From the NCBI RefSeq assembly GCF_014635705.1, contig NZ_BMDI01000001.1:1256008-1320007 (forward strand): a stretch of 64,000 bases of DNA. Direction: 5' to 3'. The notes below the pieces were generated by a model. The model was not told the origin of the DNA. It made no database searches and saw nothing but the letters and a program-made list of their open reading frames with translations. The DNA is from Oxalicibacterium faecigallinarum. Its GTDB lineage: Bacteria > Pseudomonadota > Gammaproteobacteria > Burkholderiales > Burkholderiaceae_D. This document shows positions 6,659-52,636 of the stretch, one piece after another (the stretch's first letter is position 1; the number at the start of each line of letters is the position of its first letter). A program made the translations under genes and the position numbers.

Positions 6659-7153
6659 TTAGTCATCCTCGTCTTCTTCAGTGGCATCCGCCAAATCTTC
6701 GAGTGCGATCGTCAGATTGGCCATTTCGACGGCAACACGGGCAGCATCCGCGCCCTTTTCTTCCATACGTGCCTCTGCCTGCTCATCCGTATCGGTCGTC
6801 AGCACGGCATTGGCAACCGGAATACCGAAATCCAGACCAACACGCGTAATCCCCGCACCGGACTCGTTGGAAACCAGTTCGAAATGATAGGTTTCGCCAC
6901 GGATGACCGCGCCAATCGCTACCAGTGCATCAAACTGCATGGTTTCTGCCATCTTGCGCAATGCCAGCGGAATTTCCAGCGCGCCCGGTACCGTCACCAG
7001 CAGAATGTCTTCGTCCTCTACGCCCAGATGCTTCAGTTCAGCCAGACAGGATGCCAGCAGGCCATGACAGACGTCCTGATTAAAGCGCGCCTGAACGATG
7101 CCAATGCGCAGGCCTTCGCCAGCCAGATTGATGTCATAAGTACCAACGGTCAT
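6659..7153 (-). CDS. ribH: 6,7-dimethyl-8-ribityllumazine synthase
   Basis: A 164-residue lumazine synthase, the usual length. It condenses 5-amino-6-ribitylaminouracil with 3,4-dihydroxy-2-butanone 4-phosphate in riboflavin synthesis. Key segments are [53 protein letters not shown] (with the catalytic His in this segment) and the [17 protein letters not shown] phosphate site. The last residues form an unusually acidic tail (ATEEDEDD) after the core. A good AAAGGAAG ribosome-binding site precedes ATG 7153. It is downstream of ribBA and upstream of nusB on the same strand. Confidence 0.95.
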
Positions 7154-7250
7154 GATGCTTCCTTTATGCGCTTAGGCGCCTTACTCGTTTCAACAGTCGA
7201 ATCGCAAGTCAATAATTCAACATATATTTTTCAATGAATTGAATGAACGC

Positions 7251-8473: not shown

Positions 8474-10489
8474 TCAGTACGGTTTCTGCGGCAGGCGAAT
8501 ACGGAAAATATTCCCCCCTTCCGGCGGGCAAATCAGTTGCAATTCGCCACCATGCTGTTCAACAAACCGTCGAGCCAGCGTTAATCCAATACCGGTTCCT
8601 ACCCGATTTGCACTGCCTCTCCCCCGAAAATACCGCTCAAACACCCGTGCACGCTCTTCTTCAGGAATGCTCGCACCATTGTCACAAACATCAATCTGCC
8701 AGTTTCTGTCGTTATCGTTGATCACCCGGAGAACAATACGACTGCCAGACTGACTGTATTTGACCGCGTTATCCACCAGCGTACGCAAAATCAGCCGCAA
8801 CCCATAAGGGTCAGCCCATACGAGGGCGGCTGGGTCACAATCAATCTCAAAACCATGCTGGTCTGACAAAGATTGCGTTGCTTCCACCGCATCTGCCAAT
8901 AACGGCCGAATGGCAGTTTCCTGCGGCGTTACTCCCTGAGAGAACAGTTCAAAACGCTCATCATTCAGGTAATCATCGAAGAGCAACGCAAGCCGTTTGG
9001 TCGCCTGACTAATCTTTTCCACGCGCGCCTTACTTCGTACGGCATCAGCAGGGGTTTCCCGATTCAGGTTTTGTGCAGTCGCATCAATGACAGCGAGGGG
9101 CGTACGGACTTCGTGAGAAACGGTGGCAATAAACTGTCGTTGCTCCTGTTGAATAGCCTGGGCATGTAGCAAAGCAGTTTCCAGACTTCTTTGAGTCTGC
9201 AGTAACTCATCCGTACGCGCATGCACCAGCCTTTCCAACTCCTGCCCCGAACGTTGCGTCATGCGCATCACCTCCCGTTGAGCTCGCTCAGCCTGCCGCC
9301 GCATTTCGTAATAATGTCGGCTGATCGCATAAAACACGATCAAGAAAAAGAGCAGCGAACTCAGGTACATGGCATTCTCTGCAAACCACGTTGCCGGTAA
9401 CCACTGATAGCGTACTAACGACGAATACAGGTAACAACCGAGAAGAAGCAGGCCACCGAAAACAAAGGTCCACCGAATTTCGCTGGTACTACGTAAAGCC
9501 GGCCGCCACAAAACGATTACCGATGCTGGAACAATTACCACAAAGACGAGTAACCAAAACGCAAACATTGCGTACCGCACGTTACCGGCAATCGAAATAG
9601 CACACATCAACGCGCAGAACGCCCAGACGCTTCCAAGAAAATATCTGGTCAACTTCGGACGTTGTCGATGCAATTGTACGAAGACGACGAAAAATTGCAC
9701 ACAGCATCCGATCATCAGCGTGACCGAAAGGCTATAAAATCCATTGAACCATTGCGGATGAGATGGCATCACGTATTGCTGCCACAGTCCCGTAGAAGTC
9801 AGTGTCGTGAAAATACAGCTTGCTACATATAAGGAAAAGCAAAGGTAAACACGATCACGCATCGCGCGTTCGAACCATAAGCCAGCCAAAACCAGCAATG
9901 CATACAAACCAATATAAACACCAAAAAGCAATTGTTCTTTACCAATTGCTGCAATAAAGGTCGTCGGTTGCCACAGTGTCAAACGCGCGGTTCGCCAGAT
10001 TCCGCTATCGATGCGCAGATAATAGGTTTGCTGTGTTCCTGCCGGAATGTTCAGTTTGAATACCGGATGTCGGTAGCCAACCGCACGCTCGGAAAAGAAT
10101 CTGCTGGAACCGTCTTGATACAACATGTGGTTGTCCGGGCCTTCTGGTACATATAAATCAACCTTTTCCAAAACGGCTGGCTGCACCTCGAGCCACCATT
10201 CCGTCTGCGCCTCATTGGGATTGGTGACCGAAAACTTGAGCCAGACTGCGGCATCGAGTTTTTCACGTTTGGGGTTTCCGGAAAGCGGGACAAAATCGCG
10301 ATACACATCTTGCGAGAGCACTTGCTCAAACGTTAAAGCCTTGGCGTCATCGACCAAAGCGTACAGGTGACCTTCCAATTCGTTGCGGGACTGGTCAAGC
10401 GACAGTACAGCATTGGCATGTACGGGTAGTACGGTGACAAGCAGGCAGGAAATAAGAAGAAAAAACAAGCGCGAAAAAATAGATGACAT
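8474..10489 (-). CDS. 7TMR-DISM sensor histidine kinase
   Basis: A 671-residue membrane sensor kinase. It has a signal peptide (residues ~1-25), a periplasmic 7TMR-DISM extracellular beta-sandwich (residues ~30-175, including AAVWLKFSVTNPN), and seven membrane helices (~185-385). A coiled linker leads to HisKA with the phosphoacceptor His at about 459 (ATVSHEVRTPLAVID), and an HATPase_c domain with an N box (LVDNAVKYS), DNGASIPEEERARVFERYFRG and GTGIGLTLARRFVEQHGG. The extracellular domain of this family often resembles carbohydrate-binding folds, so a sugar-like or envelope ligand is possible (inference). The cognate response regulator ends 85 nt upstream on the same strand. Both lie directly after the surface-protein operon. 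Confidence 0.92.
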   Translation of the reverse strand: MSSIFSRLFFLLISCLLVTVLPVHANAVLSLDQSRNELEGHLYALVDDAKALTFEQVLSQDVYRDFVPLSGNPKREKLDAAVWLKFSVTNPNEAQTEWWLEVQPAVLEKVDLYVPEGPDNHMLYQDGSSRFFSERAVGYRHPVFKLNIPAGTQQTYYLRIDSGIWRTARLTLWQPTTFIAAIGKEQLLFGVYIGLYALLVLAGLWFERAMRDRVYLCFSLYVASCIFTTLTSTGLWQQYVMPSHPQWFNGFYSLSVTLMIGCCVQFFVVFVQLHRQRPKLTRYFLGSVWAFCALMCAISIAGNVRYAMFAFWLLVFVVIVPASVIVLWRPALRSTSEIRWTFVFGGLLLLGCYLYSSLVRYQWLPATWFAENAMYLSSLLFFLIVFYAISRHYYEMRRQAERAQREVMRMTQRSGQELERLVHARTDELLQTQRSLETALLHAQAIQQEQRQFIATVSHEVRTPLAVIDATAQNLNRETPADAVRSKARVEKISQATKRLALLFDDYLNDERFELFSQGVTPQETAIRPLLADAVEATQSLSDQHGFEIDCDPAALVWADPYGLRLILRTLVDNAVKYSQSGSRIVLRVINDNDRNWQIDVCDNGASIPEEERARVFERYFRGRGSANRVGTGIGLTLARRFVEQHGGELQLICPPEGGNIFRIRLPQKPY

Positions 10490-10574
10490 CTGACTTGGCG
10501 CTTGAAAAAAGAAAATAAAGTCGTTATCTGTAAATGAATAGCCGAGCTTTGCAATACGACTCTGAACTAGAGAG

Positions 10575-11234
10575 TCAACTTACGTCAATCGTGGCAAGAA
10601 AGACAAAACCCTTACCGTGCTCCGTCCTGAAGGGCAATGGTTTCCCACTTTCTCTCAACCAGCGGCGACGTAACCTGCTTACGATCTGATCTAGCCGGCG
10701 CTCGTCAAACTGCAACCAGTCCACCCCAAATGCTGCCGCAATCATCTTTCTTGAAACAACTGTTCCAGGATGCGCGGCAATCAACTTAAGCAGGATCAAT
10801 TCATTTTCGCTGAGCGAACCAGAATACCCACTGGGAGAAATCAATTTTCTCTGGAGAATGCGCAGTTGCCAGTTCGATCCAAGTCGTCGCTCCAATGCAA
10901 CCAGATGCGCAGACAGTTCATCAAAACTCACTGGCTTAACAAGATAGAAATCCGCGCTTTCGCGCAAGCTGGCAATCTTATTTCGAAGGCCTCCCTGCGC
11001 CGTCAGCATCACAATCCCGCATTGTGGCCGAGCCGCACGTAATTTCGCAGCAACCTGAAGTCCATCACCGTCTGGGAGGCCGACATCAATGATCGCGATA
11101 TCGAATGCATCAATGAGCGGTTCAAATTGGACAACACTACCTGCCTCATGCACATCATATCCCTGACTTACAAGAAAGTCGGCAACCTCCTCCCTTAAGT
11201 CAGCTTCATCTTCCAACAGCAAGATGGTCGTCAT
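10575..11234 (-). CDS. OmpR/PhoB-type response regulator
   Basis: A 219-residue response regulator. The receiver has the acidic pair ED at residues 8-9 and D10, a phosphoacceptor at about D50 (AIIDVGLPDGDG), T78 in MLTAQ and K100 in YLVKPVSF. The C-terminal winged helix (residues ~125-215) includes LSENELILLKLIAAHPGTVV and RLDQIVSRLRRRW. AAGGAG precedes ATG 11234 by 7 nt. It is followed by the 7TMR-DISM kinase, making a two-component pair. It lies 123 nt downstream of the OmpA-type gene; no strong promoter is seen in that gap, so co-transcription with the surface genes is possible. Confidence 0.93.
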   Translation of the reverse strand: MTTILLLEDEADLREEVADFLVSQGYDVHEAGSVVQFEPLIDAFDIAIIDVGLPDGDGLQVAAKLRAARPQCGIVMLTAQGGLRNKIASLRESADFYLVKPVSFDELSAHLVALERRLGSNWQLRILQRKLISPSGYSGSLSENELILLKLIAAHPGTVVSRKMIAAAFGVDWLQFDERRLDQIVSRLRRRWLRESGKPLPFRTEHGKGFVFLATIDVS

Positions 11235-11357
11235 GCAACTGCTCCTTGCTTTTCCTGCGTGTCATCGCGCCATTGTAGGGTGAGATGAACATGGCATCAA
11301 TTTGTACACTGTTTTATTGTGCAACCAGCAACGCCATCGTTGAGATCAGCAAATACT

Positions 11358-12389
11358 TTATCGATCCTCATGTACGAGCACCTCGACCCGACGATTGGGT
11401 TGCAGGCAATCGATCAGTGCCTTTCTTGGAGTCACGCCTTCACAAGCAACAATCTGTTCGGTCAGGCCACGTCCTTCTGCCTTGATCGGAATCTGTACAC
11501 CGCGCTGCTGCAGATAAGCCTTGACCGTACTGGCACGTGATTCGCTGAGCTTCTGGTTGTAGTCATTGTTGCCCAGGCGATCCGTGTGGCCGATCACGGT
11601 CAGGCTCTTGACGTGCGCGTAACCATTCCGCAGTTTGTCTGCCATCTCATCGAGCTCTTCGCGCCCCTTGATCAGCAAATCGCCCTGCGTCGATTTATCA
11701 AAACGGAACAACGCATCGGCCGACAAGGTCAGTTTGATCGGCGCCGGCGGTGCAGGACGCGCGCACGCTTCCGCCGCCTGCTCGGCCCGGCCGGTCAAAT
11801 CTTCGGCGATCTGCACATAGGGCTTGGCATGGCGCCAGCCCGCATCGCGGATCTCGTTGCCGGCATGGACCAGCTCCACTTCCGCACAAGCGGTCTGCTG
11901 TGTCGCGCACTGAAAGCCGCTGTGCTGCTTGAGCGCGTCATAACGTGCCCACAGATCAGGCCGCAGCTTCTCGGCATCGTTGACCAGCGGCGTTTCCCAG
12001 CCGGCATCCTGCTTCTGTTCCAGTGCGGTCAGAATGCGCTGACTTTCTTCGAGTGCCGCTTGCGGGAAACCGCCACGATCATTTCGACTGTATTCGTGAA
12101 AAGACACGTCGAGCCAGCATTGCGCCTTCGACAAGTGGTAGTCGGCTACGCGGCGCCCGCCATCGTTGAGTGTCTTGATACGTTGCTGCGTCTCGCGATA
12201 GATGCCGTAATCACGATGGATTGCACGATCGGTAATGCGATCCTGCTGCGGTGTCAGCACGGGGTTGTTCGTCGATTGTGCCACCGCCACCGCAGAAACC
12301 AGCGACAGACCTGCTGCTGCAATCAGGATCAGACTCCATCCCGTACGCGACGGATAGAGCGAAGGTTTTTTGTTCGGACTCTTTTTCAT
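11358..12389 (-). CDS. OmpA-family peptidoglycan-binding envelope protein
   Basis: A 343-residue exported protein. ATG 12389 is preferred because AGGAAG precedes it; ATG 12413, overlapping the previous stop, would add 8 residues. A signal peptide or anchor covers residues ~15-38, ending at VAVAQ. A helical, Cys-containing region of ~190 residues follows, with no clear family. Residues ~215-340 are an OmpA C-terminal domain: LSADALFRFDKSTQ, LTVIGHTDRLGNNDYNQKLS and ESRASTVKAYL, with the conserved Asp and Arg that contact diaminopimelate. It follows the large outer-membrane protein gene with a 23-nt gap and probably tethers that system to peptidoglycan (inference). Confidence 0.85.
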   Translation of the reverse strand: MKKSPNKKPSLYPSRTGWSLILIAAAGLSLVSAVAVAQSTNNPVLTPQQDRITDRAIHRDYGIYRETQQRIKTLNDGGRRVADYHLSKAQCWLDVSFHEYSRNDRGGFPQAALEESQRILTALEQKQDAGWETPLVNDAEKLRPDLWARYDALKQHSGFQCATQQTACAEVELVHAGNEIRDAGWRHAKPYVQIAEDLTGRAEQAAEACARPAPPAPIKLTLSADALFRFDKSTQGDLLIKGREELDEMADKLRNGYAHVKSLTVIGHTDRLGNNDYNQKLSESRASTVKAYLQQRGVQIPIKAEGRGLTEQIVACEGVTPRKALIDCLQPNRRVEVLVHEDR

Positions 12390-12412
12390 GTCATCTTCCT
12401 TTTGTTCTTTCA

Positions 12413-15400
12413 TCAGCGATCAAGCGTCGGATTGCGAAGCTTGTCGTTACCGGCAAACAGGTTTTCATCAAACTTGAAGCGCACGCGAACGTAGAAACCC
12501 TGGTTCGTGTAATCGGAACCGGTCAGATCGCGATCGCGGAAGCCACGCCAGTTGTAACCAGCGGAAACCCACAGGTTGTCCTGCACCTGGTAACCGGCTT
12601 CAAAACCAAGCGCATGTTGTGTGGCGTGACCTTGCGGGCTGTAGTGCACCGATGCCAGACCGCTGATATCCCAGCGCTTGGTAATGTCGTAAGTCACACG
12701 ACCGCCAAGCAGATAAGCACGATAGGCATCGCTACGACCATCGAAATAATCGCGTTGCGATTTGGCCGCGGCACGACCACCGAACCACCAGGGACGCGAT
12801 GGGTGATACTCGGCATGCAGAGAGACAATGTGCTTGTCGAAGCCTTCGTTATTGCTGCTGTACGGATCGCCCGGGTAGTACGCCGGACCATCGCTGCCAT
12901 AGGTCGGCAAATAGGTGTTGAGACCGCTTCGATCTCGCTGCGTCCAGTATTCGTAACGCGCCAGTACATTCAGACGATTGGTATCCGTATCGCGATAAGC
13001 CACACCAAGCTGCAACTTGTCTTCATGCAGGTTGCCGGCATGACCACGGTTATCCGTCAGCAGCAGGTAGTTACGGCCGAGGAACGTCCAGTCACGATTG
13101 ATCTTGCGTGCAACGCTGATGATGGACAGCCAGGTATCGTTACCCGCCAGCGCCGGTGCCGCAGAACCTTCGCCCGGCCTGTCCTTCAGACGACGCCACT
13201 CCAAACGATTCGACAACAGCCATAAATCATTCGGACGCCATTCGATCGCACCGGTCAGCGCATACGCATCCTGCGCCTGACCACGATAGACGCGCAGATA
13301 TTCGGCAGACGTCGCAATCTTCACGGTTTCGCTGATATTCCAGCCATTACGCAATCCGCTGGCAGACTGCAATTGCTGACCGCCGACGGAATCACGCAAG
13401 CGATATTCAGAGAACACGCGCTGGTTCGGCAGATATTGCGTATCGGCACCGAACACGAATGCGTTGCTGTCATAGATGCCATTGGCAGCCTGCGGCGAGG
13501 ACAAGCCGCTCATCCATTCATACTTGCCGTACAAGCGGCCCACTTCGCTGAAGCGGTATGCCGCACCCAGCGCAGCACGCTGATAGCTGTCGCCATCGAT
13601 GCTGTGCTCGTACTCGCCAAACAGATCGATCTTGTCGGTGACACGATAGTTGCTGCGAATGCGCACACCCGTGGAGTTATAAGCCACGCCTGCCAAGCCG
13701 TAGTTCGTGCCGTTATAGCCGTAACCGGTTTGCGCATTGAGCATGCTCGATCCATAACCAAACCCGACGCTCGGCGATGGATTGACGACCAGCCCGGAGC
13801 CGGCACTGATCAGGGCATTGGCATACTGGCCTGGTTTTTCATCCGTATGCGTCAGTGCGACATCGACATTCAGTCGATCGGTCACATCATGCGAGGCACC
13901 CAATGCCAACGCGTCACGCGAGGCTCCTGCCGTTTGATGCGCGCTATGTGTTGCCTCCGCATACACAGCCCACTGATCGCCGAGACGTTTGGTGACGCGT
14001 AACGCCCCCTCCTCACGCCCCTGCGCCAGCGATGCCGATGGATTGTTGAAGTAAGGGTCACTGCGGCCATAGAAGAAGCGGGCCTGCACGGTGTCGTCGT
14101 TGTGCAATGCCTCGACGCGCCATGCGGTACCGTTGATTTCGTCCAACGCGCCTGCTGCCGGTGCCGGACCGAACTGCGGTTGCAGGCTGTACGGATTGCC
14201 TTGCAGTGACGTGCCCAGCCCGTTACCCAACACGCTTTGACTGCGCGCGACTTCTGCCACGATCGTGGTCTTGTCCGTCGGGTTGAAACTGACATTGGCG
14301 CTGGTCAGGGTGTACGGTGCATACGGATTCTTGTCCTTGACATAACTACCGCCCACTTCACTACGCTCGCCGAGTCTGACCTGGCCGTCCATGCCGTAGA
14401 CCCAGAATTTCTCGCCATCGGACTCGACTTCGTAGGTGACACGCAGCGATTTCGGATTGCCATTGGAATCAACGGATGGCAGAGGCTGGTTCAACAGGAT
14501 GCGACCCGAAAATGGTTCGAAGCTGTAATCGCCACCGCGCTGCAAGGTCTCGACAGAAAGAATGACCGCAGGCTGATAACGGTCGCGCGTGATGATCTCG
14601 ACCTTTTCCGTACCGGCCACCGCATTACGCTTGGAAACTGCAAACGGTCCCGAGATCCCCTGACCCGCAAATTCTTCGACCAGTTGCAGCAGACTATCCT
14701 TGGTCACAAAGCCATTGAGCAGCACACCATTTTCATCGTAATGGCCGCGCATGCCGTTCATCGTGCGGCTGTAGTTACCCAGATCACGCTTGCGCACCGA
14801 GGCCACATTGCCGCCGCCCGTTACCTGGCTGAAACCGGTGCCGGTATTGAAGTCACCAAACAGCAGATACGAACGATCCTTGTCGATACGCACATACAGT
14901 TTGGAAGTCGATTGCGCCTCGAAACCACGTATCGACGAATCGCCATAGACCGCGTAGTAATCATCCGGACGAATCGAACGGAACAGACGGTCGTACACAG
15001 CCTTGTCCGAGTCATAAGCCATGGTCAGCAAGGCATCGCCCTTGATCTTGCCCTTGAGGAAGAAGGCAGTACGCATGGCGCTGTAACGACGACCACCGTT
15101 ACTGCTGCTGGAAAAGCTGCGGATCTCGCGTTCAAAACCATCGTCGCGACGCGCATCGGTCAGTTGCAATGGCGATTTGCTATCGAACTTGATGATGCCT
15201 TCCACCAGACCGACTGCCAGCATCTCGCGCAGCTCCGGGACGAAGCTGATCACGCCTTGTGCCTGTGCGCGTCCCGCAGTCATGCGCACTGTCACGTCCT
15301 GCGGCTGGAACGGTGCCAGCAGTAATACGTCAGCCTGACCATCCACAACCTTGACTTGCGTGCCACGCGAGATCCGGTCCGCATCTCCACTGCCGGGGCC

Positions 15401-15928
15401 GGTTTCATCGGTTGGTGCGCCAGAAATCAGGAATCGACCTGCCGTCGCCTCCATCGTTACAAACGCTGTCCCCTTCACCGGCTGCCCATTGAAATCGAGT
15501 AACTGGATCGACAATCTTGCCGGCGTTTGCCCGTCAGCAGGCAGGCTGTTCTGTGCAACCGTGACACGAATCAGACCGACCTTCGCATTCTCGGCATAGT
15601 TGCTGTCACCGATCTGCGCATTCAGCACGCGCGATCCAGTCGGCGGCAAGTTGCTGTTGTTTGCGTTGAGCGGTTGCAAATCGAGGCCGTTGCCATGTAC
15701 GCCCAGACTGTTTTCAAATGCGACAGGTTGCGTATCGAAGCTGGTGCGTCCTTCGTTCAGCACACCTTGTGCCCATACCGGCATCGTACCGGCGACGGCG
15801 AGTGCGACCGCGGTCTGACGCATGACCCGTACACCATTTGCCGATGAACGACGTGCGCGATCACCTGCAGTTGCATGAAATACTGAATGCATGACAAGAC
15901 TCTTGAAGGTGGAAGACTTAGCGTGCAT
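12413..15928 (-). CDS. Large outer-membrane protein with N-terminal Ig-like domain and predicted beta-barrel
   Basis: 1,171 residues. A long signal sequence has its hydrophobic core at residues ~36-52 and probable cleavage after VWA. Residues ~105-235 look like an Ig/invasin-type domain (RVTVAQNSLPADGQTPARLS, QVKVVDGQADVLLLAP). From about residue 260 onward the protein is a succession of amphipathic strands with aromatic girdles (DRSYLLFGDFNTGTGF, VYGMDGQVRLGERSEVGGSY, NVLARYEYWTQRD), typical of a large outer-membrane barrel. The last strand, GFYVRVRFKFDE, is followed by a ~15-residue tail. No TonB plug was recognised. Start 15928 has GGGAGG 5 nt before it and overlaps the adhesin-like gene by 11 nt, indicating coupled translation. 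It may secrete, anchor or fold its partner; function unknown. Confidence 0.8.
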   Translation of the reverse strand: MHAKSSTFKSLVMHSVFHATAGDRARRSSANGVRVMRQTAVALAVAGTMPVWAQGVLNEGRTSFDTQPVAFENSLGVHGNGLDLQPLNANNSNLPPTGSRVLNAQIGDSNYAENAKVGLIRVTVAQNSLPADGQTPARLSIQLLDFNGQPVKGTAFVTMEATAGRFLISGAPTDETGPGSGDADRISRGTQVKVVDGQADVLLLAPFQPQDVTVRMTAGRAQAQGVISFVPELREMLAVGLVEGIIKFDSKSPLQLTDARRDDGFEREIRSFSSSSNGGRRYSAMRTAFFLKGKIKGDALLTMAYDSDKAVYDRLFRSIRPDDYYAVYGDSSIRGFEAQSTSKLYVRIDKDRSYLLFGDFNTGTGFSQVTGGGNVASVRKRDLGNYSRTMNGMRGHYDENGVLLNGFVTKDSLLQLVEEFAGQGISGPFAVSKRNAVAGTEKVEIITRDRYQPAVILSVETLQRGGDYSFEPFSGRILLNQPLPSVDSNGNPKSLRVTYEVESDGEKFWVYGMDGQVRLGERSEVGGSYVKDKNPYAPYTLTSANVSFNPTDKTTIVAEVARSQSVLGNGLGTSLQGNPYSLQPQFGPAPAAGALDEINGTAWRVEALHNDDTVQARFFYGRSDPYFNNPSASLAQGREEGALRVTKRLGDQWAVYAEATHSAHQTAGASRDALALGASHDVTDRLNVDVALTHTDEKPGQYANALISAGSGLVVNPSPSVGFGYGSSMLNAQTGYGYNGTNYGLAGVAYNSTGVRIRSNYRVTDKIDLFGEYEHSIDGDSYQRAALGAAYRFSEVGRLYGKYEWMSGLSSPQAANGIYDSNAFVFGADTQYLPNQRVFSEYRLRDSVGGQQLQSASGLRNGWNISETVKIATSAEYLRVYRGQAQDAYALTGAIEWRPNDLWLLSNRLEWRRLKDRPGEGSAAPALAGNDTWLSIISVARKINRDWTFLGRNYLLLTDNRGHAGNLHEDKLQLGVAYRDTDTNRLNVLARYEYWTQRDRSGLNTYLPTYGSDGPAYYPGDPYSSNNEGFDKHIVSLHAEYHPSRPWWFGGRAAAKSQRDYFDGRSDAYRAYLLGGRVTYDITKRWDISGLASVHYSPQGHATQHALGFEAGYQVQDNLWVSAGYNWRGFRDRDLTGSDYTNQGFYVRVRFKFDENLFAGNDKLRNPTLDR

Positions 15929-18900
15929 CGCGGCCTCCCTGATTGATTTCCAGCTGACGGACAGGAGTGTCGCGTTCGCTCAGCGTTTCACGCGGTACCG
16001 CTTTTTCGACGGACTCGCGATCATGCATACGCGGCTTGACGATCGTCTTATTGGCACTGTCCGTTCCCTGCTGCGGGTAATTCGGCGCCCTGCCTTCGAA
16101 GGTAAAGCCGACACCGCGCTTTTTCTCGACATGCGGTGCGGATACCTCGCCCTGCGTGCGGCGCGCCTTCACCTGCTCCAGCACCGTGTTGGAACACGAC
16201 CCTTCAATGAAGTCCGCGCGTTGCATTTCGCCATTCTTCAGATCGAGGAACAGGCTGTTGGCGTCGCCCACATTGCGGTTGCTGCTGCTGACCAGACGGC
16301 TGCCGCGTGGCAACGTGGTCTGATCGACTTTCAGCACATGTGTCTGTGGCGAGAAGCCGCAATAGCTGTACTTGCCTTCGCTATCGCTGATCAGGAACAA
16401 GCCATTCTGCGCATACAGGCGTACACCCGGAATGCCAAGTTCTTCGTGATCCTTGATCTGATTGCCGTTGCAATCGACATAGACCATGCCGACGATGCAG
16501 GCATCATTCGTGAACACGCCACCCGTGACCTTGACGCGATAGCGCGCTTCGTTCGAACACTTGGTATTCGGATTGAGCGGACATTCGGCACTGGCACGAT
16601 TGACACCATCGCCCTGCATCGAGCCCACACCCACCCTGACACGATAGGTAATGATGACCTTGGCACCCGGCGGAATCAGATCCAACGCATAGGTAATCAC
16701 CGGCCCCGGTGCACCCTGCATGCTCAGCAGCGTCGCACCCGTAACGCGCGAGGTGTTTTCGATCAAACGGAAGCCTTGCGGCAGACGATCGACGATGCGC
16801 GGCTGTACCACGTTGGCTTGCGAGAGATTGTTAATCTCGAGCGTGTACGTCACCATGTCGCCCAGTTCCGCATCACGCTTGTTGGCGGTCTTGGTAATCG
16901 ACAACAGGCCTGCACCTTCCACGTTCGCCGGCACGTTGGCGCAACGTCTCTCTGTACAACCACTGCCTGGTGTCGGCGGTCCACCATCCGTATCGCCACC
17001 GCCGCCGACCGACGCATAGTTGGTCGAGACACCTGTCGGCGTATCCACGCTGACCGTCACAGGCACCGTGATCGCAGCCGTGCCGTTCGTTGCTGGCAGT
17101 GGCGCAGTCGGATTGAAGTCAAAGTTCACGATCACACCGCTGACGATGTCACCCGTGCGTACGACGTTGGAGACGGTGCCTTGGTCGCTACGCAACGGCC
17201 TCGCCGGATCGATGTCCAACCCCGGAGGCAAGTGCTCGATCAAGCTCAGCGTACCAATGGTCGCCGCCTCACCACTGTTGGTGATAGTGAGCGTGTATTC
17301 AGCATCGGCGCTGCCAAGAACCAGTGTAGCTGGGCCAGTCTTAGCCAGCGACAACAGCGGTGGGCCATAAACCCTGACCTGGTCCTGAGCGCAATGCTGA
17401 TCGGTGCAGCCGGGACCAGGCGTACTTGGCGGTACATAGGGATCGCCGCCGCCCGTTACCGTTGCGTAGTTGATCACTGCACTGCCCTGAGCCAACGCAG
17501 CCACATCCACGTGTACCAGCACCACAACTGTGCCGTTGGTGATAGGAATCGGCGTCGTCGGCAAGAAATCAAAGCGCACCGTCTGGCCGCTGACCACCAC
17601 ATTGCTGACCGCCCCCATCGTACTGGTGATTGGATTGGTCGCAATCAGGCTCATACCCGGCGGCAGCGTATCGGCCAGTCGCAACACCCCAAAAGTCGGT
17701 GAATCACCCCTGTTCGTTATGGTCAGTTCATAGGTCGCCTGCTGGCCGACAATCACGTCACCGATATGACGTTTGGCCAAGGCGAGTTCAACACGGGTGC
17801 CGTTGGTCACAGCAAAGTTGGTCTGGGTTACATGACGCCCAGAAGTCAGAATGATGGTATTGACCACTTCAGCGCCGGAACGAGTACCACGCGTGGCGCT
17901 GGTTTCGTCAATTCCAGGAAAAGCGCCGTTCGGCTCGTTGATGACCGGATCGCCAGGACGCGATGGATTCGTCTTGGTGACGGTATAACCGCCCGGCCCG
18001 CTCGGACGAAGATTATCGAAATGGTAGCTGCCGTCCGTTTGCGTGGTAACCGTTACATTGACTGGGTTACCCAGATCATCGTTGCCTGTCAGTGTCACAG
18101 TGACACCCGAGAATGGCCAATCCGTACCGGGTTGGTAATTGGAACCTGCCGTACCTTTTTCGGTATAGACAAACCCGCTGATGCTGGCAGGCAGTACCTC
18201 GCCGAAATTGTTGTTGACCGATTGTGCGGTGCTGTCGCTGATCAGAATGTTGCTGATCGTGCTGGGTACGGAGCCACTGATTTCGTTCGGTACGGTCGTT
18301 GCCGTTCCCGGCGTACCACCATCGTTGACGCCCGCTGCGCTGCCCGTCTTGTCAACCGAACCGGATGTAGTTCTGCCACGCAGCGTTTCGACACCGCCAA
18401 CCACTGGCTGTGCCGTCTGCTGGATCACCGTGTAACGCCCCGGCTTTTCTAACGGGAAGTTGTAGAAACCGCTGCCGTCTGTGACAGTCGTAAAGGAAAC
18501 CGGCACGTCATCGCCTTGACAGATTGCAGGCTGAGCCGTACCGACCGACGGCGTATCAATCACATTATCAGGGCCGGCGGAACAGCCGATCAGCGTGACG
18601 GTTACGCCAGGTATCGGGGTTTCACCGCCCTCAAAAAGACCATTGTTATTGCTATCCAAATAAACGTGACCCGATACCTTCAAATTGGTCGACGTAGATG
18701 TCGTCAGTTCCGGGAAGTCGAATTGCACGCCGTTGCCACCACCATTGATGACGATACCGCTGATCACGCTGGAGTTTGCATCCGGGTTGTTGGCCGTACC
18801 TTTGCTGACCACACCCGTGCTGTCCACGCTACGTACGGAACGAATCGTGTTTGGCTGGGGTACGCCATTACCGAATCCCGATGGCTGAGTCTGCGTGATG

Positions 18901-21900
18901 GTGTAGCCAGTTGCATCGGAGGGTGGCAGATTGTCAAACAGGTAGTCACCTCGGACCGAACCGGTGCCGGCAGCGACATTACTAGTCGTTACGGTACGAC
19001 TGACCGAGTTGCCGTATTTGTCGACACCCGTCAGTGTCAGTGTTACACCACCGATACCTTGGTCGGCTGACGCGATCTCGCCATCTTGGTCACCGTTGTT
19101 GTTCAAATCGACAAAGACGCGACCACCGATGCGTGTGTTGTGCACCTGCACCGTGGTGGACTGCTGATTGTTGTTCGGGTTGTCGTCCACCGAGACTTCT
19201 TCACCATTGCTGTCCAGGCCAGGATAGATGCGCGCAAGATTGGTGCGATCCGCCAGGTAGGGAGTAGCAGCAGAACCATCGTACAGGCCTGACTTGGCAC
19301 GCGCATACAACTTCAGCGTGATGGTGTTGCCCGCACCCGCTGGAAAAAAGCCGCTGATATCACAGGTTATCGCTTGCTGCTGAGCCAGTGTCGTCACAGC
19401 GGCAACACCATTGGAGACGAAGCAGACGTTCTCCGTACCATTGCTCGGCACACTGCCGGACACGGCCAACGCACCACCTGCAGCCGTCACCGTTGCAGCG
19501 CTGCCGCCATTGACTGCCACACGCGGTGCGTAGGCACCACTGCTAATCCATTCAAAGCCGGTCGGCAGGGTATCCACCAGACGCATCTTCGTGGTGGACG
19601 AATTACCATTGTTACGCAGCACGATGTCGTACTCGACCGGCTGCGCGATATCCACGGGCGACGGTGTCACAGCCGTCTTGCTGACCACTTCCAGGTCCGC
19701 CCTCGGGAATACGACATTGTTGACCGCAGCCAGATTGTTACCGGCGATGCTGGCATCGTCCGAGCACTTGCCCGAGCTTTCGTAGACGTTGGTCTCGTCG
19801 GCGCACACATACACACGGTTGCCGAACGCAACCGGACCGCTGGCAGTACCGGTCATTTCCATCGCGATCTCGAAGTTGACTTCCTGGCCAGCATCCAAAT
19901 GGTCGATGCTGCAGACCACGTTGGCATCGGGAGCACTCTGGTTGCAGGACACGGTCTTGGGCACAAGCGTGTAACCGGCGCTGGCTGGCACGCCATTGAT
20001 GTTTGCCGGCATGCCGGTAACCATTGCAACATCGAAGCCGGGTGCCACTGCCAGGATGTCATTCATGACAATGTTTTCAGCACGTGACGGACCGAAGTTG
20101 CGCACGCTAAAGCGGTAGCGAAGCTGATCGCCGATCAGGAATCGCGTCTGCCCGTTCGGATAGACCGGGACCTTGCCCTGTTGCAGGTCGATCGAGGGCA
20201 CCTTGACGTTAAAGGTAGCGGTCTTCTGGTTGTTGGAGGTGGCAGCCGCGTCATTACAGCTTGCCGATACCGAATTATTGGTCGAGGTCTCGGTCTTGAA
20301 TTCACACATGCCGCCGCCCAGCGTCACGTACGCCGTATTCGTCACACTGGAGTACAGCGTACTGTCGGCGGCTCCGCTGATTCCCGTCGGCTTCTTGATC
20401 CGCGCGCGGATGGTGATGGTCTGCGTGTTGTAGCGATTGATGGTGACGCTGTTGGTACAAGAGATCGCTCCGGTTGCCAAATTACTTGCAGAGCAGTTCA
20501 TCTGCCCGGCATTGGCAGGCGTGACATCAATCACTTCATATGCCGGCGTAGAGAGGGTCGGCGTGCCAGTAAAGAGTGTGTCGGTGATAGTGAAGTTGCC
20601 GGCTGCAACATTGTCTTCACCCAGATTCTGCGCGGTGATCGCGAACTGCACGATCTGGCCAACCAATGGTGTAGCCGGCGTCACCGTCTTGGTAGTCAAT
20701 GCAACATCAGTACGTGGTGTCACTACCACCGCTGCCTGATCCTGCAACTGCCCACCTACCGCCGCGGTCAGAATGGCATTGGGGGATGTCAACGTTGCGG
20801 TATTAGTCAATGTGCCCGAGGTCAGCGGCCGCTGCACCGGCACCAGAACGGTAATCGTCGAACCAGCTGGGACGTCCGTAAAGCTACAAGTCAGCGCATT
20901 GTTGCCGCTTGTGATGTTCGGGCAAGTGCCCCAAGTACTCGGCGTGGTGGTAACGGTGATTGCCGGTGTACTGAAATCCGGTGCCGGAGACCCAGTGCTA
21001 GTGACATTCATGATGCCCGGAAGCGTGTCGGTCAATCTCAGCGTCGGGATCGTATCCTGGTTCGGATTCTGTCCGGCGCCAGCGCCCCTGGCAGGGGTCG
21101 TGATCGTCATGCGCCAGTACAATGTGTTGCCGTCCGCAACAAGAGTGGGCGCAGACGCAACCGGGTCATAGAAAGTCGCATTGTCGACCGACGACTCCTT
21201 GCTCATGCTGACCTGGGCGTTGCCGGAAACGACCGGCGTCGCCACCAGACCGCTGCCAGCGTCCGCACAGTCATTACCGGTGCGGCCACCATCAGGCGGT
21301 TGCGGACCATCAGCCTCGCCAATTCCAAGACCTGCCAATGCCTGTGAACCGGTACAAGCACGATCAGTCAACGTGACGGGTTCAGCGACGTTGGCGATAA
21401 CGGAGGTGAAGCTCACTGCCACCGTCGCGTTCGGCGCCAGCGTACCTGGCCCCGGATTCGAGCAGGCAATACGGGTCGTCTTGGTGGCATCGCCTACAAA
21501 TCCAGGTGGCGTGACGCCAGTAGAGACGTCACAGGTCCAGCCAGCAGTGATCGAAGCTGCCGACAGGGTCACCAAGCCGCCGTCAACTTCTTCCGGACGC
21601 GCATAGTCGACGATGCGTAGCGGATGCAATGCATCGTAGGTCGCGGCACTCGGGCTGGCGGGATCGTTGCGAATGGTGAGCGTGGTGGTGACGGCAGTAC
21701 CCGGCGCCTGTGGGCCGTTCACGTTCTTGCTCTTCGCGGCCCTTAAGTCGGCATATGGATTGACGATCTGGTACGGCAACAGCCTGCTGTTGTTGCTGGT
21801 ATTGGCATCGCCTCGTCCCGGTGGCGGCGTGACCACTACCGGGAAACTGCCATCCGTCGGTGTTGCCGGCAGCGTCAGTGGCAGGTTGAAACTCTGTTCT

Positions 21901-23045
21901 CCATTGACCGTCAAAGCGCCGACATTGCAACTAACCAGCGTACCGCTGTAACTGGTACTGCCGACGGTCACCGCACCCGGCGCAGCGGTGCAGCCTGAGG
22001 GCAACATACCGAGCGTGAAACCAGCTGGCACGACCGTCTGCACCAGGCCTCCGGCCGGATTGGCAAGCGGTCCGTTGTTTCTGTGGGTCAGGACCAACGT
22101 TTGCGTGGTGTTGACGATCTGCGCGGAAGGCGGAAAGTTGCCGAACGCTTCTGTATCCGTTCCAGGATCCACCGTGTAGTTGACAGTGGCTGTGTTGTTG
22201 GCCGGATCGGAATCGAAATAACCGACGCTACCGGATGCAATCGAAGCCGTATTGGTAAACGATCCATTGTTGCCCGCGGTGCCGGTCAGCGTTATCGTGC
22301 TGGCATTCAGCTCTGCACGCGTAAAAGGACCGTTGTAAGTGCACGTCAGCGTGCGCATGGAATTGGCGTTGACGGTGGTGTTGCAAGTCGGTGTTCTGCC
22401 AGCAAACGCCACATTGGACAAATTGAAGTCTGTCGCTGTACCAGGAAGGCTGTCGGTGACCACAATAGAGCCCTCAGGCGGGACGTCGTCGCCATTCGTG
22501 ATCTGCGGCGTCAGCGTAAATACCACGGTGCCGCCAGCTACGGGGCTGCCTACCGGCGAGGACTTGGCTTTGCCGACGATCATGTCACCGGTGCTGCGCA
22601 CCGTGCCGGAGAACGCGGCAGACTGTCCCGACGTGCCGGTCGCGGTCAGGTTGAAGCCGCCCAGCACAGCACCCTGCACCGGAAAGGTAACGGTACCGGT
22701 AGCACCCGTGCTCCCATCGGGCACGTCGCAAACCATATTCGGCGCGGTATATACGCAGCCGACCGGCGGCGCCGGCGGATTGACCGCCAGTTGCGGTGGA
22801 ATCACGACCGTGATCTTGTCGCCCGTTGCAGTTGCCGTTCTTTCCCACGCAACGACGACATCGACGATTTCACCGCGTCCCACGTCGGGTGCTGCCGTTA
22901 CCTGATTCGCCACCACCTGCGCCTGCACAGAAGATGCGGTTACGATTGCGAGTAGAAGTGCCGCCGTCGAACAGACATGTTGACGACGAAACAGGAAATG
23001 ATGGCGCAGTGCATGCAGCCTGCGGGAGAAAGAGATCACGTTCAT
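15918..23045 (-). CDS. Giant DUF11/SdrD-like repeat surface protein
   Basis: About 2,375 residues, starting at ATG 23045 (TTG at 23063 is an alternative). A signal peptide ends at SSVQA after a long basic N-region. About eight DUF11-like beta-sandwich repeats follow, with motifs such as YDIVLRNNGNSSTTKMRLVD. Then come three SdrD B-like, potentially Ca-binding domains near residues ~1305, ~1455 and ~1620 (VFVDLNNNGDQDG; VYLDSNNNGLFEGGE; third degenerate), three more DUF11 repeats (YELTITNRGDSP, YTLTITNSGEAA), and a fourth SdrD-like domain near ~2180 (VYVDCNGNQIKDHEELGIPG) with extra cysteines. The tail is charged. There is no LPXTG, autotransporter barrel or PEP-CTERM signal. It is the first gene of the operon and is probably a stalk, adhesin or S-layer-like protein displayed with the downstream outer-membrane protein (inference). 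Confidence 0.85.
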   Translation of the reverse strand: MNVISFSRRLHALRHHFLFRRQHVCSTAALLLAIVTASSVQAQVVANQVTAAPDVGRGEIVDVVVAWERTATATGDKITVVIPPQLAVNPPAPPVGCVYTAPNMVCDVPDGSTGATGTVTFPVQGAVLGGFNLTATGTSGQSAAFSGTVRSTGDMIVGKAKSSPVGSPVAGGTVVFTLTPQITNGDDVPPEGSIVVTDSLPGTATDFNLSNVAFAGRTPTCNTTVNANSMRTLTCTYNGPFTRAELNASTITLTGTAGNNGSFTNTASIASGSVGYFDSDPANNTATVNYTVDPGTDTEAFGNFPPSAQIVNTTQTLVLTHRNNGPLANPAGGLVQTVVPAGFTLGMLPSGCTAAPGAVTVGSTSYSGTLVSCNVGALTVNGEQSFNLPLTLPATPTDGSFPVVVTPPPGRGDANTSNNSRLLPYQIVNPYADLRAAKSKNVNGPQAPGTAVTTTLTIRNDPASPSAATYDALHPLRIVDYARPEEVDGGLVTLSAASITAGWTCDVSTGVTPPGFVGDATKTTRIACSNPGPGTLAPNATVAVSFTSVIANVAEPVTLTDRACTGSQALAGLGIGEADGPQPPDGGRTGNDCADAGSGLVATPVVSGNAQVSMSKESSVDNATFYDPVASAPTLVADGNTLYWRMTITTPARGAGAGQNPNQDTIPTLRLTDTLPGIMNVTSTGSPAPDFSTPAITVTTTPSTWGTCPNITSGNNALTCSFTDVPAGSTITVLVPVQRPLTSGTLTNTATLTSPNAILTAAVGGQLQDQAAVVVTPRTDVALTTKTVTPATPLVGQIVQFAITAQNLGEDNVAAGNFTITDTLFTGTPTLSTPAYEVIDVTPANAGQMNCSASNLATGAISCTNSVTINRYNTQTITIRARIKKPTGISGAADSTLYSSVTNTAYVTLGGGMCEFKTETSTNNSVSASCNDAAATSNNQKTATFNVKVPSIDLQQGKVPVYPNGQTRFLIGDQLRYRFSVRNFGPSRAENIVMNDILAVAPGFDVAMVTGMPANINGVPASAGYTLVPKTVSCNQSAPDANVVCSIDHLDAGQEVNFEIAMEMTGTASGPVAFGNRVYVCADETNVYESSGKCSDDASIAGNNLAAVNNVVFPRADLEVVSKTAVTPSPVDIAQPVEYDIVLRNNGNSSTTKMRLVDTLPTGFEWISSGAYAPRVAVNGGSAATVTAAGGALAVSGSVPSNGTENVCFVSNGVAAVTTLAQQQAITCDISGFFPAGAGNTITLKLYARAKSGLYDGSAATPYLADRTNLARIYPGLDSNGEEVSVDDNPNNNQQSTTVQVHNTRIGGRVFVDLNNNGDQDGEIASADQGIGGVTLTLTGVDKYGNSVSRTVTTSNVAAGTGSVRGDYLFDNLPPSDATGYTITQTQPSGFGNGVPQPNTIRSVRSVDSTGVVSKGTANNPDANSSVISGIVINGGGNGVQFDFPELTTSTSTNLKVSGHVYLDSNNNGLFEGGETPIPGVTVTLIGCSAGPDNVIDTPSVGTAQPAICQGDDVPVSFTTVTDGSGFYNFPLEKPGRYTVIQQTAQPVVGGVETLRGRTTSGSVDKTGSAAGVNDGGTPGTATTVPNEISGSVPSTISNILISDSTAQSVNNNFGEVLPASISGFVYTEKGTAGSNYQPGTDWPFSGVTVTLTGNDDLGNPVNVTVTTQTDGSYHFDNLRPSGPGGYTVTKTNPSRPGDPVINEPNGAFPGIDETSATRGTRSGAEVVNTIILTSGRHVTQTNFAVTNGTRVELALAKRHIGDVIVGQQATYELTITNRGDSPTFGVLRLADTLPPGMSLIATNPITSTMGAVSNVVVSGQTVRFDFLPTTPIPITNGTVVVLVHVDVAALAQGSAVINYATVTGGGDPYVPPSTPGPGCTDQHCAQDQVRVYGPPLLSLAKTGPATLVLGSADAEYTLTITNSGEAATIGTLSLIEHLPPGLDIDPARPLRSDQGTVSNVVRTGDIVSGVIVNFDFNPTAPLPATNGTAAITVPVTVSVDTPTGVSTNYASVGGGGDTDGGPPTPGSGCTERRCANVPANVEGAGLLSITKTANKRDAELGDMVTYTLEINNLSQANVVQPRIVDRLPQGFRLIENTSRVTGATLLSMQGAPGPVITYALDLIPPGAKVIITYRVRVGVGSMQGDGVNRASAECPLNPNTKCSNEARYRVKVTGGVFTNDACIVGMVYVDCNGNQIKDHEELGIPGVRLYAQNGLFLISDSEGKYSYCGFSPQTHVLKVDQTTLPRGSRLVSSSNRNVGDANSLFLDLKNGEMQRADFIEGSCSNTVLEQVKARRTQGEVSAPHVEKKRGVGFTFEGRAPNYPQQGTDSANKTIVKPRMHDRESVEKAVPRETLSERDTPVRQLEINQGGRDAR

Positions 23046-23616
23046 ACGGTCTGTCCAGCCCAAAGTAATTGCCTAAAATTTATGCACCTCATTGCCTCAA
23101 AACAATGAGAATGAATCGGCGAGAAGATATGCGATGCCTGCTGAATCACGAAGTCAACGTTTGTCAGCAAATGAAAATATTTGCTAACAACGAGTCAGCA
23201 TTGACACCTGACGTCACTGCTTAACAATTAGGCAGTGCGTTTTATTTCAGAGAAATTTTTCAGGCGAGATTCTGAGAGAAAAGCTCGGAGCGTTTCTGAC
23301 AAGTTCTGACAAGGTGGTGATGTCAAATTGGAATGAAAGAGGAGAAAAACGTAGATTCATTTTTCTCAAGAAAACGCGGAAACCTGCATCAAATATGGCG
23401 ATCAGGCACGGCAAGGTTATCCAGCACAATCTTATTTGGCGCTCTAAATCTCAAACCGAGCGGCGCAAACAATTGTTAACTGATAAAAATGAGCAAAAAA
23501 CTCAGGCCGACTGTATTGAAAAAACAGAAGAAAAGAATGGCGAAAATGCGATGTGCTCGAATGAGAGAATGACTACGTACACGCCCTTAGAGCAAGGGCG
23601 CTTGAAGAAAAACTGA
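23046..23616. other. Intergenic region upstream of the surface operon
   Basis: About 570 nt, AT-rich, without a convincing gene. It must hold the promoter of the giant surface protein, on the minus strand. Visible elements: a perfect 7-bp inverted repeat AGCAAAT/ATTTGCT (23166-23172/23179-23185, 6-nt spacer), and GTCAGCA twice, 31 bp apart (23163-23169 and 23194-23200). A weak promoter candidate, TTGTTT-17-TAAATT, lies near 23075-23103 on the minus strand. The half from ~23240 to 23580 shows nothing recognisable. Confidence 0.45.
23582..23600 (-). other. Stem-loop downstream of the TonB-dependent receptor
   Basis: CGCCCTT-AGAGC-AAGGGCG, a perfect 7-bp stem with a 5-nt loop, begins 16 nt after the receptor stop codon. 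No U-tract follows on the minus strand, so it is at best a weak terminator or an mRNA 3'-end stabiliser. Confidence 0.4.
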
Positions 23617-25737
23617 TTACCAGCGTTTTTCAATGCCGGCAAATATGGCTTTCACTTGGCCCGGACGAAACACCGCTGATGACGTACCGGCGACACGTGC
23701 ATCGACCATATGGTCTGCAGTCACGGCGTAGTGTTTGTCGCCCAGGTTACGTGCATCGATGAAGAAGCGATAACCGCCACGCGCGACATAGCCAGTTTGC
23801 AGATGCAAAACGCCATAACCGGGTGCCTTCAGCGAATTAGCCTGATCTGCATACCAGCTCGAACCAAGTTCGATGCGTGGTCCAATGTAGAAGCCGTTTG
23901 TATGGCGGTAGGTGAAACCAGCTTGCAGAACGTGATCCGGAATACCGGGCAACCTGTTATTGCCATAGTTGGGATGCCCATCGAATCGAAAATGATTCCA
24001 TGTATAAGCAAAATTCCAATCCATGCTGGCGGAAAGTAAAGGCAAGCTCTTCGTACCATGCAAACCGAGTTCGAGACCGCTGTGTTCCGTATCCGACGAC
24101 GAATTGACATTAATCGTCGGTAGCGTCGGCGCCAGTGTATTTGCAATGGCTAGCAACTCGTTATTGACGCGACTGCGGTAAACGGCTATATCCCAACCGA
24201 ACTGACGATCACCACCTCTTACGCCAATCTCAAAGGTTGTTGCACGCTGTTGTTCAAGGGTAGCCGTTCTTACCGAAGGTGGAAATCCAGCGACGGGATA
24301 GCCATTGAAGAAAGCAAGGCTGGCAGGCGCTTCGTGACTGCGCGTGAGATTGGCATATACCTGCGCCTCCATTCCCAAATCATAGATGGCACCAATCGAT
24401 GGGTTAAGGCTCGTATATGTTCGCGATGCAGAGCCATCCGGATATTGCGTAATGATGGGGCGAAGCGTGGCGGCCAGGCTGTTATCTGTCGAACGTCTCG
24501 CTTGCGCAAATTGCGCTCCGCCGATGAAAGATAAACGATCGTTCAGTTGATACGTATTTTGCGCAAAGACTTCAATGTTGCTGCGACGGTCGCGGATAGT
24601 TCCTGGTCCACCTGCGGTCACCCCCGGCATCGCCGGAACGACCAGACTGTTGTCACCATCGCCACGCCCTGCATTCACGCCCCACACGAATCGATTGGCA
24701 TGCCCATTTAACAAACGATTGATTTCATGGCGCAAAGAGAGGCCGTAATCCGTTGCGTCGTATCGAGCACGTGCTACTTGCGTGGGTGAATCGAACTTAG
24801 TCCCGGTATGGAAAACACCGGCAGTCAATCGATCTTCACCGATATCCCATTCTTGCTGATAAGCGAGATGCCAACGAGGAGAAGTATGAATATAGGCACC
24901 GGCAGCCCGATTTTGTGGATGCGCCATCCATGGTGTGTTTCGAATCTGTTCCAGAGTAAGCGTGCCCGGCAATTGCCCTGTGTAACGCTCCTCCGTGATG
25001 TGCAGTCGACCTCGCGAGGTCGCACTGAAGGCATAACCGATATTGGCGTAGAGGCGGGATGAACGCTCCGCTGCATTCTCCCTGAAACTATCCGTCTCGT
25101 AATGCGATGCAGAGACATAGACATCCAATCCACTTTCGAATACTTTGCCACCTTTCAGTTGAATACGACGAAAACCATCCGAACCGGCTTCCATACGAGC
25201 AGTTGCACCAGGATCGTTATAAGCTGTTGGCGAAATCAGATTGAGCGCACCGCCCAGCGTGGATGCCCCGTATTGCAAGGAACTTGCTCCGCGATACACA
25301 TCAATACGATGCGCCGACATGATGTCCGCATAAATTGCTTCGTTCATGTCATCAAGACGACCAAGGGGCAAGCCGTCCCGCAACAAACGTATGCCACGGA
25401 TACCAGTACTGGCAATGCCTGAACCGCGCATGGAAACGCGTGCAGCCTCTTGTCCCGACGGCCGTTGGACATACACGCCTGGCAAACTGGCTAACGCATC
25501 AGCCAATCCGATCGCTGCGTGCTCCTTCACATCTTCAGTAAAACGTATCGAAACATTGCCTAGAATGCTACGCGCATATTCACGTGCTGCCGCACGTTCT
25601 GCGGTTTCACCCTTCACGTCAATTGGCGACAAAGTCTGCGTTGCAGTAGGAGTTTGAGCAACGACGGGCAAAGCAGTCAGGGAGAGAAGGCTAGCCAGAA
25701 AAAGACGAGCATCGAAGGGAAGAAAGCACTGTGACAT
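23617..25737 (-). CDS. TonB-dependent outer-membrane receptor (FecA-like)
   Basis: 706 residues: a signal peptide (LASLLSLTALPVVAQ), then a TonB-box-like LSPIDVKGE and a plug domain (DALASLPGVYVQRPSGQEAA; VSMRGSGIASTGIRGIRLLR; RIDVYRGASSLQYGASTLGG; LNLISP), then a ~22-strand barrel ending in ...FAGIEKRW with a terminal aromatic residue. The family imports ferric siderophores, other metal chelates or vitamins using the proton motive force via TonB-ExbBD. It is a single gene, ~100 nt after the ribE terminator. No clear Fur box or riboswitch was recognised upstream, so the substrate is open; iron chelate is the default guess. Confidence 0.88.
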   Translation of the reverse strand: MSQCFLPFDARLFLASLLSLTALPVVAQTPTATQTLSPIDVKGETAERAAAREYARSILGNVSIRFTEDVKEHAAIGLADALASLPGVYVQRPSGQEAARVSMRGSGIASTGIRGIRLLRDGLPLGRLDDMNEAIYADIMSAHRIDVYRGASSLQYGASTLGGALNLISPTAYNDPGATARMEAGSDGFRRIQLKGGKVFESGLDVYVSASHYETDSFRENAAERSSRLYANIGYAFSATSRGRLHITEERYTGQLPGTLTLEQIRNTPWMAHPQNRAAGAYIHTSPRWHLAYQQEWDIGEDRLTAGVFHTGTKFDSPTQVARARYDATDYGLSLRHEINRLLNGHANRFVWGVNAGRGDGDNSLVVPAMPGVTAGGPGTIRDRRSNIEVFAQNTYQLNDRLSFIGGAQFAQARRSTDNSLAATLRPIITQYPDGSASRTYTSLNPSIGAIYDLGMEAQVYANLTRSHEAPASLAFFNGYPVAGFPPSVRTATLEQQRATTFEIGVRGGDRQFGWDIAVYRSRVNNELLAIANTLAPTLPTINVNSSSDTEHSGLELGLHGTKSLPLLSASMDWNFAYTWNHFRFDGHPNYGNNRLPGIPDHVLQAGFTYRHTNGFYIGPRIELGSSWYADQANSLKAPGYGVLHLQTGYVARGGYRFFIDARNLGDKHYAVTADHMVDARVAGTSSAVFRPGQVKAIFAGIEKRW

Positions 25738-26519: not shown

Positions 26520-26536
26520 GATGAGGAAGAAAAGAG

Positions 26537-50120: not shown

Positions 50121-50143
50121 GAATCAGGTAAAAGATTTATTCA

Positions 50144-50192
50144 AGAAAAATCGCGCATGGATTGTCGACCTTGGTCTTCACAATGCATGCGC
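50144..50192 (-). terminator. Intergenic stem-loop between btuB and btuC, possible partial terminator
   Basis: GCGCATGCATTG (50192-50181) and CAATCCATGCGC (50164-50153) form a 12-bp arm pair with one mismatch and a 16-nt loop. GATTTTTC follows on the minus strand, giving a short U-tract. It could end part of the btuB transcripts or stabilise the btuB message. Confidence 0.55.
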
Positions 50193-50229
50193 GCTAATAC
50201 AACAAGCACTATTCTAAATTTTTACGGCT

Positions 50230-52624: not shown

Positions 52625-52636
52625 AATTACATTCAC

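Follow-up and report, generated by a model that had tools for sequence, protein, structure and literature searches.

A DUF11 string, an outer-membrane barrel and an OmpA-type protein as conserved partners and candidate parts of a cell-envelope fibre in Oxalicibacterium faecigallinarum and its relatives

DUF11 domains are widespread, and their Pfam name still marks them as a domain of unknown function. DUF11 (PF01345) and SdrD_B (PF17210) occur in Gram-positive surface proteins, and the same domains make up P0001, the largest protein of the Oxalicibacterium faecigallinarum locus described here. In contrast to the Gram-positive proteins, P0001 is encoded in a genome without a sortase and has an outer-membrane barrel and an OmpA domain as linked partners. 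Chlamydial OmcB, a cysteine-rich envelope protein of Gram-negatives, also contains DUF11 repeats; the resemblance to P0001 is by description only, and we know of no barrel partner for OmcB. In the proteobacterial dedicated sortase system (Pds), an OmpA-like protein, a regulator and a kinase are found beside a surface protein. The layout of our locus is similar but lacks the sortase, and the Pds models (TIGR03785/03787/03789) stayed far below their cut-offs (PdsO, 32.8 against 152.2 bits; regulator, 63.4 against 335.7; kinase, 79.1 against 612.2), which places the locus outside this family. Deinococcus SlpA/SDBC likewise combines a large barrel with a cell-wall tether. For two-partner or autotransporter secretion, the chain order of the family described below would fit, the string preceding the barrel, and export by the barrel is putative. 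Relatives of our proteins resemble, at the level of sequence, donor-strand fibres such as chaperone-usher pili, TasA and the archaeal bundling pili: some subunits finish with an incomplete Ig-like domain, and others have the missing strands at the N-terminus. These relatives differ in that they appear to exchange two strands rather than one, in that the domain is DUF11, and in that the base subunit is the barrel itself; the proteins of our locus are without the signature, and none of the 19 neighbouring ORFs scanned has a chaperone or usher Pfam match. One preprint (PMC11952670) locates DUF11 in an anchor of Clostridia spore fibres and places the fibre F-ENA-2a outside the strand-exchanged class. 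Our search of the open-access literature found neither a description of the present family, which is weak evidence as subscription papers are mostly missing there, nor an account of how Gram-negatives place DUF11 at the surface. Strand exchange is known as a principle; the barrel as base subunit and DUF11 as the exchanged unit appear to be new.

The window, by which we mean the whole stretch of 64,000 nucleotides analysed, contains five consecutive minus-strand genes that a sequence-only reading had proposed to form one functional unit (Table 1). ORF and Pfam checks confirmed all five, including the length of the barrel protein and an overlap of its gene with that of P0001, which amounts to 11 nt. 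P0001, described as a DUF11/SdrD protein of about 2,375 residues, has 2375 residues when translated from the ATG at 23045 and 2381 residues from a TTG. The 23-nt gap claimed between the barrel and OmpA genes exists if a later candidate ATG, preceded by the purine-rich AAGGAAG, is the start of the OmpA ORF, and does not exist if translation begins at the ATG that overlaps the barrel stop codon (TGATG). Pfam matches bear out the identities of the response regulator (Response_reg, 6e-18) and of the sensor kinase (7TMR-DISMED2, 2e-27; 7TM, 3e-20), the latter also containing HisKA and ATPase domains. The sortase that a sortase-anchored surface protein would call for was correctly reported as missing: a search of the host genome gave 0 matches and was positive in 3 of 14 control genomes.

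Table 1. Features of the locus, numbered by their position in the window
Feature	Position	Strand	Remarks
P0001, DUF11/SdrD_B string	15918..23063	-	2381 aa, exported, 34 mature Cys
P0001 C-terminal DUF11-SdrD_B module, residues 2051-2285	16209..16913	-	homologous to the pre-barrel module of fused chains
P0001 C-terminal tail, residues 2286-2381	15921..16208	-	starts with the VKARR segment
P0002, large outer-membrane beta-barrel protein, without Cys	12413..15928	-	1171 aa
P0002 Ig-like stretch (Big_1/invasin D3), residues 121-177	15398..15568	-	below Pfam cut-off; N-terminal of the barrel
P0002 predicted barrel region, about residues 237-1154	12467..15220	-	structure model
P0003, OmpA-type; N-terminal region without Pfam assignment	11358..12413	-	351 aa
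P0003 OmpA C-terminal domain, residues 245-324, Asp/Arg pair kept	11442..11681	-	
P0004, OmpR-family response regulator; genus-level partner	10575..11234	-	219 aa
P0005, 7TMR-DISM histidine kinase; genus-level partner	8474..10489	-	671 aa
P0006, TonB-dependent receptor upstream; unit membership unproven	23617..25737	-	within the ribE-ribBA block

Both domains that had been read from the sequence of P0001 score above their Pfam cut-offs, DUF11 with E=1e-41 and 142 bits (cut-off 24.6) and SdrD_B with 9e-24 and 84.3 bits (cut-off 29.7). The protein also matches the isopeptide-domain model TIGR04226, and all seven DUF11 matches in the genome fall within this single ORF. Tandem Repeats Finder reported no DNA repeats within the window, indicating that the repeats of P0001 are diverged protein domains. 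The mature cysteines allow a division into 17 pairs of neighbours, with a spacing of 5-29 residues in 16 of the pairs, a pattern consistent with intra-domain disulfides. A sequence search of P0001 against solved structures gave no match at E<=0.01.

For P0002 we found no Pfam family above cut-off and no NCBIfam match, and its one recognizable stretch is the weak Big_1/invasin-D3 similarity; Big_1 was detected in 16 of 40 members of the barrel family. The structure model of P0002 has middling confidence (pLDDT 70.2, pTM 0.66) and contains roughly 40 predicted strands of at least 7 residues, a count that does not fix the true strand number. The top three Foldseek matches of this model are Deinococcus SlpA/SDBC structures (best E 7e-10), titled as outer membrane protein and S-layer complex, with the SlpA match reaching a TM-score of at most 0.29 and spanning a generic barrel. 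Searched by sequence against solved structures, P0002 gave no match at E<=1, and a profile of 40 barrels found only the porin OmpT, with an E value of 2e-6 and an alignment of about 110 positions, which we read as generic barrel likeness. P0002 resembles solved structures only as a generic barrel. Membership of the barrel among the ushers or with SlpA was considered and set aside as unproven, the best fold matches being generic barrels. The closest named relatives of the window barrel come from Oxalicibacterium (L027 and L031, 84% barrel identity). In a wider sample of 299 genomes from across the phylum, the family profile detected barrels in 44, of which 24 come from one family; among the 239 genomes of high quality the number was 28.

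The third protein, P0003, contains an OmpA domain by Pfam (E=8e-14). The Asp/Arg pair of this domain is its peptidoglycan-binding pair, and we found it kept in 41 of 41 aligned OmpA domains, a set that includes two OmpA genes of L103 outside the unit. With domain and pair both present, P0003 belongs to the OmpA family and is predicted to bind peptidoglycan.

We compared the gene neighbourhoods of 50 loci encoding a P0002 relative, using models seeded with proteins of the window to scan the ORFs. At 27 loci, a DUF11-SdrD_B module and the barrel form one chain. The barrel is separate at the other 23, where the DUF11 protein and the OmpA domain are both adjacent or fused in 19 cases; the four exceptions (L035, L046, L059 and L071) are all cut by contig ends. 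Nine of the 27 fused chains also contain the OmpA domain, located between the module and the barrel, and in fused chains the DUF11/SdrD_B module and, where fused, the OmpA domain always lie ahead of the barrel. Of five fused chains scanned with Pfam, that of L054 carries the OmpA domain. Further combinations are OmpA fused to the barrel without DUF11 (L102, L103, L104, L108 and L118) and DUF11 fused to OmpA (L061). The core co-occurs in Oxalobacteraceae, Sphaerotilus and Variovorax, with the gene order DUF11-barrel-OmpA, and in Lysobacteraceae, with the order barrel-OmpA-DUF11. Co-occurrence and fusions together support the proposal that the DUF11 protein, the barrel and the OmpA protein are one unit. 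No OmpA domain was found by the family model in or beside the chain at 17 of the 27 fused loci, although locus ends truncate four of the 27 fused anchors and a neighbour at L050 gave a weak OmpA match of 34 bits; peptidoglycan anchoring is thus common but not universal. The Sphaerotilus DUF11 giant (L040, 2508-9842) contains 70 cysteines. Sphaerotilus makes a cysteine-rich sheath, and a link between the two could be tested. A TIG-domain protein that also matches Peptidase M66 weakly is encoded upstream of the fibre genes at L066 (569-3334).

The C-terminal end of P0001 is a complete module plus a tail. The module matches those of P0010, P0011 and P0012 with E values of 7e-24, 2e-22 and 5e-32; in P0010 and P0011 it lies ahead of the barrel in one chain, and in P0012 the barrel is the next gene. 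It scores 281 bits against the family model, which was itself seeded with this stretch. The homology with fused chains indicates that P0001 and P0002 are the split version of a protein that elsewhere is a single chain, and by sequence the split point would lie after the SdrD_B domain and a tail. A VKARR segment is common to 18 of 23 distinct C-terminal tails, and the five without it are exactly those from loci where OmpA is fused to the barrel. The type of tail thus follows the type of anchor, and the tail of P0001 is a candidate docking peptide. The window's form accordingly looks like a fibre made of one chain that docks on a barrel encoded separately.

A different arrangement was found in relatives with fused barrels. 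Here, DUF11 subunits encoded beside the barrel stop short of the last two strands of the domain, and longer subunits and the barrel anchors start with these two missing strands as an N-terminal hairpin. Among controls the signature occurred in 2 of 520 proteins of a first set and in 0 of 141 of a second. The hairpin model alone, at 5 bits, gave a weaker result in the second set (7 of 31 shafts, 5 of 18 anchors). A looser hairpin motif, which was devised after the first set had been seen and matches 12 of 520 first-set controls, was present in 26 of 31 shafts and 7 of 18 anchors of the second set. In a further count, 10 of 45 anchors have no hairpin by either measure, and one 164-aa tip (L054) is classed with the shafts as its hairpin score passes. 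In a structure model of a shaft (pLDDT 93.3), residues 9-36 form a confident hairpin and residues 286-308 a last strand, the output being without contacts. Proteins with an acceptor end only are either about 160 aa long or giants of up to 2473 aa, and the giants look like tips. The pattern predicts fibres in which the tips are acceptors only, the shafts are both donor and acceptor, and the barrel base is a donor only. We considered a circular permutation, in which each subunit would be completed by its own N-terminal hairpin alone; against this, the short tips have the incomplete domain without a hairpin, and the anchors show the reverse. The features of a donor-strand-complemented fibre are thus present in relatives at the level of sequence, and they are absent from the window, where P0001 and P0002 have hairpin scores of -15.4 and -1.1 bits. 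We tentatively propose, at somewhat less than even odds, that relatives assemble a split-DUF11 fibre by two-strand hairpin exchange, with the barrel serving as base subunit, peptidoglycan-tethered anchor and exit pore, and that the window encodes a one-chain derivative. If true, such a fibre of strand-exchanged DUF11 subunits would be an undescribed kind of surface fibre.

In our main reading, P0001, P0002 and P0003 together make up one cell-envelope fibre, as docked string, barrel base and OmpA tether, respectively; we consider this slightly more probable than its negation (roughly 0.55). The P0002 barrel would be the base of the fibre in the outer membrane, tethered to peptidoglycan by the OmpA domain. 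Where the fused forms have a covalent link, the C-terminal module and tail of P0001 may instead bind P0002/P0003 non-covalently. The remainder of P0001, a dozen or more domains that are probably stiffened by disulfides, would project outward through or beside the barrel. In fused-barrel relatives, separate subunits would be joined as the C-terminally incomplete DUF11 domain of one receives the N-terminal beta-hairpin of another; the string of the window would be a single covalent chain. Surface display, secretion, the barrel as an exit pore and a fibre function are putative throughout. With the barrel-anchored family, DUF11 proteins gain a location and a role that can be tested. As the split-domain pattern predicts binding pairs and their order, assembly could be tested with purified proteins, and the one-chain form of the window offers a natural comparison of covalent with assembled fibres.

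Several of the findings above do not sit easily with a fibre: the proteins of the window have neither donor nor acceptor signatures, the export route of P0001 is putative, the barrel model is middling and its fold matches are generic. A further difficulty is one of topology. With OmpA located between string and barrel, the simplest arrangement puts the string in the periplasm too, and a segment N-terminal to a barrel is periplasmic by default. The DUF11 string could then be a scaffold that tethers or girdles the outer membrane to peptidoglycan, with the barrel as its membrane foot and nothing displayed, for which chlamydial OmcB or Deinococcus SlpA would be models. The best argument for such a scaffold is the OmpA domain with its Asp/Arg pair between module and barrel in nine of the 27 fused chains, and the three best Foldseek matches also point to it, although the low TM-score of the SlpA match to a generic barrel weakens the latter. 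Extended P0001 would be tens of nanometres long, by an estimate from domain size, exceeding the usual periplasmic depth, and the acceptor-only giants of relatives have the appearance of tips. We prefer outward projection on account of the length of P0001 and regard a purely periplasmic string as unlikely. Much less probable still is that P0002 functions as an ordinary solute receptor or porin, that P0001 is an adhesin exported on its own, and that their neighbourhood reflects co-regulation only. Such a role is suggested by some database names (plasmid relatives are annotated, among others, as DUF11 domain-containing protein, hypothetical protein, TonB-dependent receptor and SdrD B-like domain-containing protein) and by P0006, a real TonB receptor adjoining the unit. 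The Plug and TonB_dep_Rec families that Pfam detected in P0006 were, however, not matched in P0002, which thus lacks the hallmarks of a TonB-dependent receptor, and a Plug or TonB barrel is not among the 8 families listed for 40 barrel family members. The fusion of the DUF11 module to 27 of 50 related barrels likewise disfavours a solute receptor or porin.

The two-component pair fared differently from the three core genes, and its inclusion in the proposed unit was not upheld. Across 60 genomes, counting that of the window, matches to P0004 at E<=1e-40 occur in 7, each from the window's genus, and none was found in 47 relatives outside the genus, 10 of which have the barrel; a 7TMR-DISM kinase is present at 2 of the 50 barrel loci. 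The sequence-only reading had itself named unlinking of this pair in relatives as grounds for abandoning the unit, and this is what we observed in part: the first three genes co-occur, and P0004 was matched at this threshold within the genus only. Within the genus, five genomes have P0004 at 55% identity or more (G000, G002, G005, G008 and G012), and in 5 of 5 a copy adjoins the barrel cluster; the barrels of G002 and G005 are only 29-30% identical, and a small barrel gene separates regulator and barrel cluster there. The kinase adjoins the regulator in G000 and G008, lies elsewhere in G002 and G005, apart from the barrel cluster, and is found in G012 on another contig (L107), with a second regulator and beside a TonB receptor. 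The genus-only distribution and the consistent adjacency together indicate a lineage-specific regulator outside the conserved core. The pair is probably a local, real regulator, and the 7TMR-DISM kinase and regulator may be a control added in the window's genus. We also considered a single functional cassette of the five genes, or six with the TonB receptor, with the kinase as a sensor of envelope state or of fibre assembly. The adjacency in 5 of 5 genomes speaks for this, as does a locus of another family (L108; G059), where a different, diverged regulator and 7TMR-DISM kinase pair flanks DUF11-barrel genes; the dispersed kinases and the barrel-positive relatives without a regulator match at E<=1e-40 make a single cassette doubtful. 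A second type of kinase near such genes is found in a Moraxellaceae assembly (L074, 658-3312): a 7TMR-DISM hybrid kinase whose gene lies about 300 bp upstream of the first gene for the fibre.

The genomic site provides one further argument for a cassette. The block from TonB receptor to kinase (8474-25737) sits between ribE/ribD and ribBA/ribH (window 6659-8363 and 25893-27640), and in L146, a relative without the barrel, about 140 bp separate ribE from ribBA. Other genes lie between ribE and ribBA in L141, and ribE was not found within the fetched stretch of eight other genus-relative loci (L142-L145, L147-L150). The difference between L146 and L141 indicates that the site is variable, so the riboflavin operon only mildly favours insertion of the block as a unit. 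In a close relative, the TonB receptor gene upstream of the DUF11 gene is split over several frames (L027, 2268-4379; L151, 7204-9315), possibly an artefact of metagenome assembly. Elsewhere in the window, positions 49071-54976 encode a FecCD permease and two TonB receptors in a region of lower GC content (0.425 at 52-54 kb).
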